A DNA stretch of 64,000 bases from Gilliamella sp. Pra-s52 (GTDB lineage: Bacteria; Pseudomonadota; Gammaproteobacteria; Enterobacterales; Orbaceae), in NCBI RefSeq assembly GCF_009795805.1, contig NZ_WTEY01000002.1, positions 124,001-188,000 on the forward strand, given 5' to 3'. Positions 24,930 through 40,089 of this stretch are shown in pieces. Under the pieces are notes generated by a model, which searched no databases, was not told the origin of the DNA, and worked only from the letters and a program-made list of their open reading frames with translations. A program made the position numbers and the translations under genes. Within the stretch, counting starts at the first letter, position 1, and each line of letters starts with the position of its first letter.

Positions 24930-24935
24930 GATAAA

Positions 24936-25116
24936 CATCTCTGAGATGATCGCGATATGGGTTAGTCCCCTGAGCCGATAATCTTATCTTAGGAACGGAG
25001 TGATTTTTAATTGGTGAGTATGCCTTACTTGTAAGGAAACCTAAAAATTAAAACACAATGTTCACCTTGAACCTCGGGTTCAAGGGTTACGACCCTAACG
25101 ACATCTTGGAGTTTCC
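24936..25116 (+). ncRNA. ssrS: 6S RNA (ssrS)
   Basis: Small RNA that binds sigma-70 RNA polymerase holoenzyme in stationary phase by mimicking an open promoter. About 181 nt (E. coli 183). Recognised by the conserved blocks ATCTCTGAGATG at the 5' end, AGTCCCCTGAGCCGATA, TTGGTGAGTATGC, TTCACCTTGAACC and GGGTTCAAGGGTTACG, and a 3' arm that re-pairs with the 5' end (CATCTTGGAG). Its place between zapA and fau matches enterobacteria, where fau is cotranscribed. The 3' end is set by pairing and may be off by a few bases. Confidence 0.95.
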
Positions 25117-35666: not shown

Positions 35667-38114
35667 CTATTTGGTTTTATTGGTTGATTTTGATTTACTA
35701 CGTTTTTTACTTTTAGCTTTCACTTCAACTTTAGCCGTTGATTTCATGCTTGATTTAGCGCTCGATTTTGCCTTTTTTGGGGTACTTGATTTAGTACTTG
35801 GCTTAGTATTTGGTTTCGTACTACTTTTTTTACTGGTTGATTTTTTGTCTTTTCGCTTAACGGGTAAGTCAGCTTGTTGAGCGTTTTGGGCTTGTTTAGA
35901 CTTATCTTTTACCGTTTTACCTTGACGTTTTGGCTTATTATTACTACCCACTAACGAAAAATCAATTTTACGCTCTTCTGGATTGACGTTATCGACTTTA
36001 ACTTGCACTTTATCGCCCAAACGATAAGTAAAGCGAGTATTTTCACCAATTAAACGATTGCGTGAACCATCAAACGTATAATAATCATTTTCTAGCGATG
36101 ACACATGCACTAAGCCATCAATAAATAGATCATCTAACCGCACAAAGAAACCAAAATTCACCACGCTCGAAATCGTACCGTTAAAAACCTCGCCGACATG
36201 ATCTTGCATATAATCACATTTAAGCCAATCAACTACATCACGCACCGCTTCGTCCGCACGTCGTTCGGTCATGGAACAGTGCTCACCAAAATAGAGCATT
36301 TCGCTGGTAGTATAACGGTAGCCACCTGTTTTACTGGTCTTTTGTTGTTCATCCGCTAAAATCCATTTAATCGCACGATGCAAAAGCAAATCAGGATAAC
36401 GACGAATTGGCGAAGTAAAATGTCCATATTCCTCAAGTGCTAAACCAAAATGTCCGCGGTTTTCAGGATCATAAATAGCCTGCTTCATGGAACGCAAAAT
36501 AACCGTTTGCAGCATATCATGATCAGGACGCGTTTCAACCACCGTCATTAATTCGGCGATATCTTTAGGTTTAGGATTAGCGCCTCCACCAAGCGACAAC
36601 CCAAGTTCACTTAAAATACTACGCAAATTATTAATGCGATCTTCATCAGGCCTGTCATGCACACGGAATAATGAAGGAATATCCGCTTTAATCACTAATT
36701 TTGCCGCAGCCACATTGGCTAAAATCATGCACTCCTCAATGATTTTATGCGCCACATTACGTTGTGCTAGTTCGACACTTTCAATACGCTTATCAGCATT
36801 AAAGATAAATTTAGGCTCTTCTGACTCAAACCCTATCGCCCCACGAGCAACCCGTGCTTTATCAAGCACATTATAAAGCCCGTAAAGGTTCTCAAGATGA
36901 GGAACCAAGTCACGGTAATGTTCGCGAAGTTCTTCATCTCCCTCCAAAATCTTCGCCACTTTGGTATACGTTAACCGAGCATGCGAATTCATCACCGCTT
37001 CGTAAAACTCATACCCCGTCAACCGCCCACGATTAGACACCGTCATTTCACAAACCAAACACAAGCGATCCACTTGCGGATTTAACGAACACAGTCCATT
37101 AGATAAAACTTCAGGAAGCATAGGCACCACACGCGATGGAAAGTAAACCGACGTACCACGCAAACAAGCCTCTTTATCTAACGCTTTGCCGGGCCTAACA
37201 TAATAACTCACATCCGCAATCGCCACCCACAACCGATAGCCACCGCCACGGTTTTTTTGACAATAAACCGCATCATCAAAATCACGAGCATCTTCGCCAT
37301 CAATAGTCACTAATGGCAAATTTCGTAAATCTTTACGACCGTTTTTGGCGCTTTCGGGAACTTGATCAGTAAATTTGCTGGCCTCGGCTTCAACCTCGTT
37401 AGGTAGTTCATAAGGGATTTCGTGATTACGCAAAGCAATATCAATGGCTAAATTTGTGCCCATCATTTCGCCAAGCACTTCCTTAATCACACCCACCGCT
37501 TTTTGGCGACGCTCTGGTCGTTGTTGTAACTCAACCACCACAACAGCCCCCATGCGTACGGTGCGATCGGGTTTACCCGTTATTAAAATATCAAAGTTCA
37601 AACGGCTATCATCAGGCACCACAAAACCAACGCCTTGCTCGATAAAATAACGACCAACAATTTGATTACTACGAGGCTCTAAAATTCGCACTACCCTAGC
37701 TTCGGTTTTACCACGGTATTGCGTACCGATAGGTTGGGCTAAAATCACATCTCCCTGTAAGACTTTCTTCATCTGTTCTGGTGCTAAAAAATAGTCCTCA
37801 GGATTACCCTCTACCCGCAAAAAACCAAAACCATCACGGTGGGCAATAACCTTACCTTTAACCATGTCGAACTTTTCTGGCAGGGCATAACACTTACGAC
37901 GCGTAAACACCACTTGACCGTCACGCTCCATCGCACGCAAACGACGGTGCAATGCCACTTTTTGCTCATCATTTTTAATGTCGACAGCTTGAGCAATTTT
38001 TTCTAAACTGGCAGGCTTTGCTTCTTGTTTAAGGTAATCTAAAATAAGCTCTCGACTGGCAATTGGGGAATCATACTTCTCGGCTTCGCGGTCAAAAAAT
38101 GGGTCTTTTATCAT
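35667..38114 (-). CDS. rnr: Exoribonuclease R
   Basis: Processive 3'-to-5' exoribonuclease able to digest structured RNA. Length is 815 from the ATG at 38114 (E. coli 813). It begins [20 protein letters not shown], matching E. coli MSQDPFQEREAEKYANP, so the upstream codon at 38150 is rejected. N-terminal HTH and cold-shock domains ([13 protein letters not shown]), RNB core with [17 protein letters not shown] (Asp cluster), and S1 domain near [18 protein letters not shown]-like sequence. The tail is Lys/Ser-rich and low-complexity (many SKS, TKPS and KSS units). AGGA lies a few bases before the ATG. Confidence 0.97.
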
Positions 38115-38299
38115 AAAGGAATATCCTGTGACTAATATTAGTGCTAGCATAACATAGAGTGGTATAAGTTAACATCAACATTCTATTTAATAAACAAGAA
38201 TCAATTGATTATTAGCTTAGTTTTAAAAGAATAGTTCAGTATCTGAGTTATAGTAAAAATAATTAAAATAATAACAGTTAAAAATAAGGAAATAAAAAA

Positions 38300-38703: not shown

Positions 38704-38748
38704 AAAAAACTTCAATAAAATCAATACCTTTCCTGACCGATTTTTTTA
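38704..38748 (+). repeat. Dispersed intergenic repeat, copy 2
   Basis: Near-identical to 39561-39605, with a shared exact core of 25 bp at 38714-38738 (AATAAAATCAATACCTTTCC then TGACC). Preceded by an A-run and followed by a T-run as in the other copies. Together with copy 3 it brackets the CRISPR-containing region as direct repeats 857 bp apart. Confidence 0.85.
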
Positions 38749-38851
38749 TCAAAATGATGATTTTTTTGTTGGTGCATAGAATAAATTAAGTGCTGTGGTT
38801 TCGGACGTTTTGACTTTTTGTGAATAAAATAGCTGTTGTGAACACGTCCGA

Positions 38852-38879
38852 GTCAGGGAATTAAAGCGAATTCCCTGAC
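38852..38879. terminator. Strong hairpin of unknown role
   Basis: Perfect 11-bp stem GTCAGGGAATT / AATTCCCTGAC with a 6-nt loop. No T-run follows on either side, so it may be a structural or recombination element and not a terminator. Confidence 0.4.
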
Positions 38880-38891
38880 AACCCACGCTTT

Positions 38892-39192
38892 GGCGTCAGA
38901 ATGTGGCCTTCGGCACTACTCGTATCATCCTGATACTCGCCTCTACGAGGCCACCTTCGCTGTGCTCAGATGTTCAAATTTGTTCCAGACAAATTTGTCC
39001 GACGTCGCTCGGTCTTAACGCACCGTTTGTGCGATTACTCGTATCATCCTGATACTCGCCTCTGCGAGGCCACCTTCGCTGTGCTCAGGTGTTCAAATTT
39101 GTTCCAGACAAATTTGTCAAGCGCGCCACAAACTCGCCAAACGTCCTGTTTGGCGTGCTAACCTCACTCTGTTGTCGGCGCATTCTGACGCC
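38892..39192. repeat. Palindrome-dense block bounded by 12-bp inverted repeats (MITE-like)
   Basis: GGCGTCAGAATG at 38892-38903 and its complement CATTCTGACGCC at 39181-39192 frame about 300 bp. Inside are two 83-bp direct repeats (38917-38999 and 39036-39118, two mismatches, 119-bp step). Each 83-bp unit contains three hairpins: GTATCA/TGATAC, GCCTC/GAGGC and CAAATTTGT/ACAAATTTG. A further hairpin GCCAAAC/GTTTGGC is at 39136-39154. The block is visibly richer in G and C than the flanks. A small non-autonomous mobile element or a structured RNA or DNA element is possible; the family is not recognised. Confidence 0.65.
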
Positions 39193-39250
39193 GGAATAAG
39201 GCAGATAGCATAGCCGATTGTTTTTATAATTATATGATTAATTTTGTTTT

Positions 39251-39398
39251 TTTAATTACCGCCTATACGGCGTTAAGGTTTATTATAAAAAGTTGGTTGA
39301 TTTAGTAAATTTTCTAAACCGCCTATACGGCGTTAAGGCAGAAAAAGTTGCGCTTGCATGTTTACATTGTTTTCTAAACCGCCTATACGGCGTTAAGG
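39251..39398 (-). CRISPR. Orphan minimal CRISPR array, type I-F geometry
   Basis: Three 28-nt repeats at 39251-39278, 39311-39338 and 39371-39398, exactly 60 bp apart, separated by two unrelated 32-nt spacers (39279-39310 and 39339-39370). 28 + 32 is the standard type I-F unit. On the minus strand the repeat reads CCTTAACGCCGTATAGGC followed by GGTTTAGAAA. It shares the TTAGAAA 3' end and a CGCC-GTATA-GGCG stem with I-F repeats (usually TGCC/GGCA, so a compensated change). The 39251 repeat is degenerate at four positions, as the leader-distal repeat often is, which places the leader to the right. No cas gene lies in the window. Confidence 0.85.
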
Positions 39399-39457
39399 GA
39401 GAACTCAAGATTTGATAAATCTTGTTATATAAAGATAAACAACAATTTTGACTTTGA

Positions 39458-39530
39458 AAACCCTTTTTTTAAGCTGTTTTATAATGTTTTGATTTTATTG
39501 AATTTTAAATTATTGTAAAAAAAAGGGTTT
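39458..39530. repeat. 13-bp inverted repeat beside the CRISPR array (possible leader)
   Basis: AAACCCTTTTTTT (39458-39470) and AAAAAAAGGGTTT (39518-39530) are perfect complements about 47 bp apart, on the side where the leader would be. The AT-rich stretch between contains, on the minus strand, an 18-bp match at 39489-39506 to the start of the dispersed repeat seen at 8945. Leader function is inference. Confidence 0.55.
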
Positions 39531-39560
39531 GTAGAGGTTTATATTCAAAAAAACGGACAG

Positions 39561-39605
39561 AAAAAACTTTAATAAAATCAATACCTTTCCTGACCAATTT
39601 TTTGA
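39561..39605 (+). repeat. Dispersed intergenic repeat, copy 3
   Basis: Core 39571-39595 is identical over 25 bp to copy 2 and 23/25 to copy 1. Same A-run before and T-run after. It closes the repeat-rich region 170 bp upstream of rsfS. Confidence 0.85.
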
Positions 39606-39774
39606 TAAGAAGTAATTGATTAGCTATTGTTAGTCTGTTTTTATTCTAAAGGCCGAAGGTTAGTATTGATTCAGTCATTTATGCCGTTAAATGTTGTTTC
39701 TATTTTTGCATAGCCGTTATTTTATAATTTCGTGGTATACTAGCGCTTTATTTTTTAACCATAGAGAGTTTATT

Positions 39775-40089
39775 TTGCAGCAGTCGTTACAAGATTTTAT
39801 TATTGATAAGATTGATGATCTAAAAGGCAAAGATATTGTTACCCTTGATGTTCGTGGTAAGTCGAGCATTACTGATTATATGATTATTTGTACGGGCACT
39901 TCAAACCGTCATGTTTCGTCTATTGCCAATCATTTACTTGATGAAGCTAAAAAACAAGGGCATTTAGTATTAGGTAGTGAAGGGAAAACTGATGCTGATT
40001 GGGTTGTGGTTGATATGGATTCGGTGATTGTGCATATTATGCAAGAAGAGAGCCGTCAGCTTTACGAACTGGAAAAACTTTGGAGTTAA
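39775..40089 (+). CDS. rsfS: Ribosome silencing factor RsfS, TTG start
   Basis: 104 residues from the TTG at 39775 (E. coli RsfS/YbeB 105). It binds protein L14 and blocks subunit joining under starvation. Body [20 protein letters not shown] with [20 protein letters not shown] and [20 protein letters not shown], nearly the E. coli sequence. The frame stays open back to 39691, but upstream residues have no family match. AGAGAG lies 7 bp before the TTG. rlmH follows after 4 bp, as in other gammaproteobacteria. Confidence 0.93.

Follow-up and report, generated by a model that had tools for sequence, protein, structure and literature searches.

A remote type I-F CRISPR array beside rnr in Gilliamella sp. 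Pra-s52 and its dispersed sister arrays

Anatomy of the array

The window analysed here is a stretch of 64,000 nucleotides (G000:C24:124001-188000) from the draft genome (2.49 Mb in 65 contigs) of the bee-gut bacterium Gilliamella sp. Pra-s52. Between rnr and rsfS it carries three CRISPR repeats of 28 nt each at steps of exactly 60 bp, with two 32-nt spacers between them; the array reads along the minus strand, and its leader forms the right-hand end. The features of the locus are, in window coordinates:

35667-38150, minus: rnr (ribonuclease R), whose homologue flanks an array of the same family in four other Gilliamella genomes
38714-38738, minus: core of the repeat M, trailer side, in the same orientation as the leader-side copy
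38739-39250, minus: trailer, an AT-rich stretch followed by a GC-richer segment of a repeat family
39251-39278, minus: terminal repeat, degenerate in its last 8 nt
39279-39310, minus: spacer 2, 32 nt, with an exact match next to a CC motif in a gene of an integrating conjugative element (ICE) of G023
39311-39338, minus: repeat 2, the same as repeat 1
39339-39370, minus: spacer 1, 32 nt, without a convincing match
39371-39398, minus: repeat 1 (leader-proximal), CCTTAACGCCGTATAGGCGGTTTAGAAA
39399-39570, minus: leader, assigned by alignments and trees to the leader family of the dispersed arrays
39458-39530, no strand: leader inverted repeat, AAACCCTTTTTTT ... AAAAAAAGGGTTT, with arms at 39458-39470 and 39518-39530
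39571-39595, minus: core of M, leader side, 197 nt ahead of repeat 1
39775-40089, plus: rsfS

Elsewhere in the window, a 6S RNA (Rfam RF00013, 114.9 bits) lies at 24935-25116.

The two right-hand repeats are identical, and the left, distal repeat carries four differences, all within its last 8 nt. A first-pass annotation of this DNA had described three repeats with this spacing over 39251-39398, a degenerate distal repeat and type I-F geometry, and the present analysis agrees on all of these points. The degenerate ending, GTAATTAAA, is shared by the sister array C13a and by the rnr-side arrays of G006, G007, G020 and G023. When up to 3 mismatches are allowed, the genome matches the repeat core at 43 places, 41 of them at array sites and the other two noise-like; a chance repeat is ruled out by the reversed control, which gives 3 matches.

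The cas-adjacent repeat of the same genome reads CTTCAATGCCGTGTAGGCAGTTTAGAAA, and the window repeat is similar to it. Each of the two repeats folds into a four-pair stem with a five-base loop, and the fourth pair is changed on both sides (stem TGCC/GGCA in the cas-adjacent repeat, CGCC/GGCG in the window). The canonical I-F repeat resembles the window repeat, with a TGCC/GGCA stem and a fold of five pairs. The compensated stem change proposed in the first-pass annotation thus stands relative to these two repeats but not among the three copies in the window, whose stem is the same.

The leader inverted repeat is conserved, with small changes, in all 34 aligned leaders. A promoter-like site in the leader scores no better than shuffled sequence. 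In I-F leaders, Cas2 contacts conserved inverted-repeat motifs, as described in PMC12259127, and the window leader is likened to these by the type of motif, not by its letters. In sum, the locus has the characters of a type I-F array: 28-nt hairpin repeats, 32-nt spacers, a 60-bp period, a conserved inverted-repeat leader adjoining the first repeat, I-F cas genes in the genome, and a spacer that matches a mobile element beside a 5'-CC.

Cas genes and spacer targets

A genome-wide search with the Csy4 profile gives one Csy4-family match, on contig C55. Adjoining this csy4 are cas1f, cas2-3f, csy1, csy2 and csy3, each above its NCBIfam cut-off, together with a six-repeat array. A complete I-F set (cas1, cas2-3 and csy1-4) is therefore present in the same assembly, on another contig than the window. 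The claim that no cas gene lies near the array stands in so far as the sole Csy4 match is elsewhere and five window ORFs have no PADLOC match, which is a partial test. The array may be called an orphan within the window but not genome-wide: cognate cas genes are present, and it is not the orphan array of a cas-less genome. The suggestion that it is a stranded array served by Cas proteins encoded elsewhere gains support from the complete set on C55. Across the genus, csy4 accompanies this repeat type in 14 of the 16 genomes that have it, versus 7 of the 19 genomes that lack the repeat type; the two csy4-less genomes with the repeat type hold one and two copies, and one of them is 67% complete.

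Spacer 2 matches G023:C85:59122-59153 at 32 of 32 bases, with ACC immediately before the match. The protospacer lies inside an ICE protein of family TIGR03755 (above cut-off), adjoining TIGR03756, on a contig that also carries the TraC PFL_4706 (TraC-type ATPase) and MobH relaxase families. This ICE contig, which has a PFGI-1-class relaxase, is matched by spacers of G000 (this genome), G007, G017, G018 and G025. A set of 345 spacers of this genome and its relatives, a few of which are 32-mers past the last repeat and not true spacers, gives nine hits on the contig at up to 5 mismatches; reversed spacers give 0 and three shuffled sets 0 each.

A protospacer search over the fetched loci, with distant genera left out, gave 24 rows, of which 14 were dropped (nine from a false spacer read from the antisense repeat, one sister spacer of the same array, one degenerate end and three duplicate placings). 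Eight of the 10 protospacers kept have a 5'-CC, against a background CC frequency of 0.027; the other two have CA, one of them reading CCCA, a shift of one. Arrays away from csy4 (the window, C24a, G007 C41, G018 C8 and G025) account for five of the 10, with CC in four of the five.

Spacer 1 was found only as itself in 35 genus genomes at up to 3 mismatches. It has no match in viral contigs (exact pattern, N at every sixth base), none in phages at E up to 1, and one weak match in plasmids (92% over 26 nt, E 0.7). Spacer 2 has no match in viral contigs; its phage matches (9 records, the best 92% over 26 nt, E 0.02) are AT-rich and were taken as chance. With the whole array as query against phages, the 20 records listed of 49 are mostly Klebsiella phages at 84-88% (E 0.04 to 0.5), covering spacer 2 and part of the last repeat; six of the 49 reach 90-95%. 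The three plasmid records matched by the whole array are probably other arrays, because the matches span repeats. Arrays C13a, C44b, C24a (its last spacer left out) and C55 have no phage matches.

Sister arrays, spacer turnover and flank exchange

The same leader and repeat type is found at eight sites away from the C55 cas locus, the window included:

Window array, C24:163k: 2 spacers
C24a, C24:41k: 7 spacers
C13a, C13:295k: 8 spacers
C13b, C13:424k: 3 spacers
C44:50k: 1 spacer, read by eye, with a single full repeat
C44b, C44:86k: 7 spacers
C61, C61:23.7k: 1 spacer, read by eye
C65, C65:53k: 5 spacers

The labels 'mini' and 'orphan' of the first-pass annotation overlook this membership. It had also named, as a sign against a CRISPR array, a repeat recurring at many sites without spacers; the repeat does recur widely, yet there it forms arrays that have spacers and leaders. 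About 0.3 kb from C24a, the opposite strand carries one isolated degenerate repeat (L016:6757-6784, G000:C24:41755), possibly an array remnant.

The leaders of the dispersed arrays form a family that is separate from the csy4-side leader of this genome and closer to the cas1-end arrays of relatives. In a tree of 34 leaders, with the csy4-side leaders of G025 and G026 left out and supports from 0.09 to 0.97, one family unites 11 of 13 csy4-side leaders, from this and other genomes, with one more; it takes in every csy4-side leader but those of G015 and G016. A second family joins the dispersed arrays to the cas1-side arrays found in G014, G016 and G032 and to two csy4-side leaders, those of G015 and G016. 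The G014 array stops some 0.15 kb ahead of cas1f; the G016 array is separated from cas1f by about 3 kb and two other genes, on the far side of cas1f; the G032 array stands directly before an ORF of cas1 length, a candidate cas1. In this genome, the 5.8 kb beyond cas1 hold no array. By name, G014 appears to be G. apicola ESL0177, G018 G. bombicola R-53248, G020 G. mensalis and G023 Gilliamella sp. Pas-s25.

In a second tree the leaders group by genome, with supports of 0.42 to 0.85 within the window cluster. The leaders of the window, C13b, C44b and C61 show 92-95.5% identity among themselves; the window leader has 94-95.5% identity to three sister leaders, 86-93% to the other four and 84-90% to the rnr-site leaders of four other genomes. 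Such clustering, though its supports are uneven, fits recent copying or homogenisation inside each genome. In G016, one identical 32-nt spacer occurs in the cas1-side and csy4-side arrays (L185: 14463, 1876), whose repeats differ, and this fits either one machinery feeding both arrays or exchange between arrays.

The array site was initially read as strain-specific, since relatives have nothing that corresponds to its rsfS side. That reading was overturned by arrays of the window's family between the purD-side genes and rnr in G006, G007, G020 and G023, with 8, 6, 6 and 13 spacers, compared with 2 in the window. Across the five sets, the nearest spacers of different sets differ by at least 15 mismatches. 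The rnr-side site is kept and its spacer content is not.

This turnover bears on two other readings of the array. The first, that it is a small RNA with CRISPR looks which regulates without Cas proteins, has in its favour the small hairpins into which the repeats fold and the fact that five genomes have such an array next to rnr. That the genomes carry unrelated spacers at a homologous site argues that the array is no fixed regulatory element; a fixed regulatory RNA was ruled out on this ground, and a cas-free RNA element on the presence of the cas genes and the CC-flanked protospacer in a mobile element. The cas-independent regulatory crRNA offered by the first-pass annotation is therefore unsupported, and we consider this reading highly improbable. 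The second reading, which the same annotation also raised, is a decaying relic: an array copied away from the cas locus that no longer gains spacers or yields crRNAs. Two spacers and a degenerate last repeat are what such a relic might show, and some sister arrays are near-dead, C44:50k with its one full repeat among them. Against this, repeats 1 and 2 are identical, the leader is conserved at the identities given above, spacer 2 has its exact CC protospacer, the spacers at the homologous site are unrelated, and degenerate terminal repeats also close sister arrays with up to 13 spacers. These points weaken the relic reading to the extent that it appears unlikely, even if two spacers and a degenerate end could mark a dwindling array.

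The neighbourhood of the array has itself been rearranged. Left of about 39700, the sequence next to rsfS has no counterpart in any of the 28 relatives compared; the stretch upstream of rsfS (window 39100-39700; L049-L073) is unlike all relatives compared and is likely a synteny breakpoint. In the four genomes with an rnr-side array, the leader-side block is the one that here ends at C13b (C13:408-424k), and in this genome rsfS lies on the leader side of the rnr array and ilvA on the trailer side of C13b. The swapped neighbours indicate that array loci of this lineage have traded flanks, and the rnr-site array itself may accordingly have been swapped, not only updated. The reciprocal joint, ilvA next to rsfS, is absent upstream of rsfS in 24 loci, one of which has 0.4 kb and two 7-8 kb of upstream sequence only; a simple two-array inversion is not proven, as this ancestral joint was not found. 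In the relatives at L050 and L055, the genes that flank C13a here sit about 3 kb upstream of rsfS. The genome is a draft; misassembly is unlikely because the window cassette and C13b share no exact match longer than 76 nt. Just before C13b (L010:155-5750, G000:C13:418-424k), purD is followed by repeated copies of its 3' end, which alternate with near-identical ORFs that we take to resemble PAAR-type proteins.

The M repeat and the dispersal of arrays

M has a 25-nt core, GGTCAGGAAAGGTATTGATTTTATT, and conservation extends over about 40 nt around it. This genome has 99 copies at up to 3 mismatches (reversed control 0), arranged singly, as inverted pairs of about 85 bp, or as direct pairs about 155 bp apart. 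Among 35 genus genomes, at up to 2 mismatches, there are 80 copies here, 103 in G018, 9 in G022, 1-6 in nine others and 0 in 23. Arrays of the window repeat type, in counts grouped by hand that are too low for genomes with other repeat variants, number 8 here, about 10 in G018 and no more than 3 elsewhere. Counted at up to 4 mismatches and in array orientation, M lies 195-197 nt ahead of repeat 1 in five of the eight dispersed arrays here and 76-512 nt past the last full repeat in seven, with copies on both sides in four, the window included. All seven G018 arrays with both flanks have M on both sides, always 279-280 nt away on the leader side; three further G018 sites, cut by contig ends, are left out of this count. 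No M flanks the cas-adjacent array.

One reading of these patterns is that M is a recombination or transposition site with the array unit as its cargo, in which case dispersal would be active and not a matter of passive duplication. The two-sided M copies at fixed leader distances (197 and 279-280 nt) are consistent with it, as is the co-occurrence of many M copies with many arrays in the same two genomes, the others having at most 9 and 3. Moreover, two array copies in G018, of which one lies at a contig end, have the oldest spacer and the trailer in common and lose homology just past M, and on the trailer side homology drops after M in both this genome and G018. On the leader side, M is where homology starts for the window, C13b and C44b, whereas in G018 homology extends beyond M; C61 and C44:50k share an additional 155-bp unit outside M, and three dispersed arrays here are without a leader-side M. 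The complete genome G025 (L208-L212), which is M-less, has 12 separate I-F arrays in 20.0 kb, the csy4-side one included, several of them in tandem 0.7-1 kb apart and with the leader motif visible for 11 of the 12. These tandem arrays imply that in this genus leader-array units multiply whether or not M is present, and active M-bounded movement is a tentative proposal that we hold as the less probable option. At L208 in G025, two neighbouring arrays have nearly the same 32 nt past the last repeat. The GC-richer trailer segment (window 38840-39180) is a dispersed repeat family of its own, which recurs in other array cassettes and also at C11:12.4k, C9:21.4k and C13:34.7k, where no array is listed, and many times in G018.

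The reading we prefer, with a probability of roughly 0.88, is that of a remote type I-F array that is transcribed and used with the C55 Cas machinery and has spread as a leader-array unit. It draws on the anatomy of the array, the cas genes, the kinship of the leaders, the CC protospacer, the unrelated spacers at a homologous site, the M copies near the boundaries and the exchange of flanks, all observed; transcription, processing, interference and acquisition in this strain, like the mode of copying, are what we infer from them. Transcription would run leftwards from the leader, the Csy4 encoded on C55 would cut each repeat hairpin, and the predicted 60-nt crRNAs, with the handle UUUAGAAA, would be loaded into the Csy complex, which would recruit Cas2-3 and have matching DNA destroyed. 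Spacer 2 would in this way keep out an integrating conjugative element that other Gilliamella carry, and Cas1 with Cas2-3 of the C55 locus would insert new spacers at the leader end. Against this reading stand the repeat stem, which differs from the cas-adjacent one by a TA pair replaced by CG, cleavage by the genome's own Csy4 being a prediction; the two spacers and degenerate end; spacer 1, with its want of a convincing match; the promoter-like site; and the draft state of the genome. The array may further be one copy of a leader-array-trailer unit, kin to the cas1-end array of the cas operon in relatives, that would have been copied to other chromosomal sites between M repeats in direct orientation.

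In itself the array is ordinary, and probably a working remote array; the interesting and unusual part is the repeat-bounded mode of array dispersal. It is conceivable, although we rate it as rather doubtful, that the arrays of bumblebee-gut Gilliamella are cargo of an M system, in which units are moved or copied between M sites, multiplied in single lineages and homogenised, and have their flanks exchanged, so that one cas locus would come with genome-wide, independently updated memory loci. In the literature searched, with incomplete coverage of subscription journals, no description of dispersed arrays in Gilliamella was noticed, and none was found of a fleet of arrays bounded by a dispersed repeat with flank exchange.

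Gilliamella lends itself to asking how a single cas locus has come to serve numerous distant arrays, since array number varies widely between its genomes and bursts are traceable by leader trees. M provides candidate end sequences that can be tested as recombination sites, and the array loci are places where gene order changes. According to PMC12814883, multiple arrays arise by duplication, transfer and splitting, and definitive evidence for a benefit is lacking.

Among known systems, small dispersed repeats of the MITE or REP kind are the nearest likeness of M, which is similarly about 40 bp long and has 99 copies, alone or in inverted or direct pairs; unlike them, M bounds CRISPR cassettes in direct orientation. 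With type I-F1 systems of the Yersinia and Pseudomonas type, in which several arrays accompany a cas locus, the window array and its genome share the 28-nt small-hairpin repeat, the 32-nt spacers, the CC motif, the leader inverted repeat and the cas1-cas2/3-csy1-4 set, but here eight dispersed arrays exist in addition to the cas-adjacent one. In PMC12814883, several arrays are often served by one cas locus (mean 1.48, with up to about 10 being rare), and arrays with equal repeats are updated alike at any distance from cas; as a member of its set, the window array fits this multi-array service. The cas-less I-F arrays of E. coli (CRISPR4) treated there are alike in lying away from cas genes, but I-F cas genes are absent from that system and most of its spacers target cas, whereas this genome has the cas genes and its spacer 2 is directed at an ICE.
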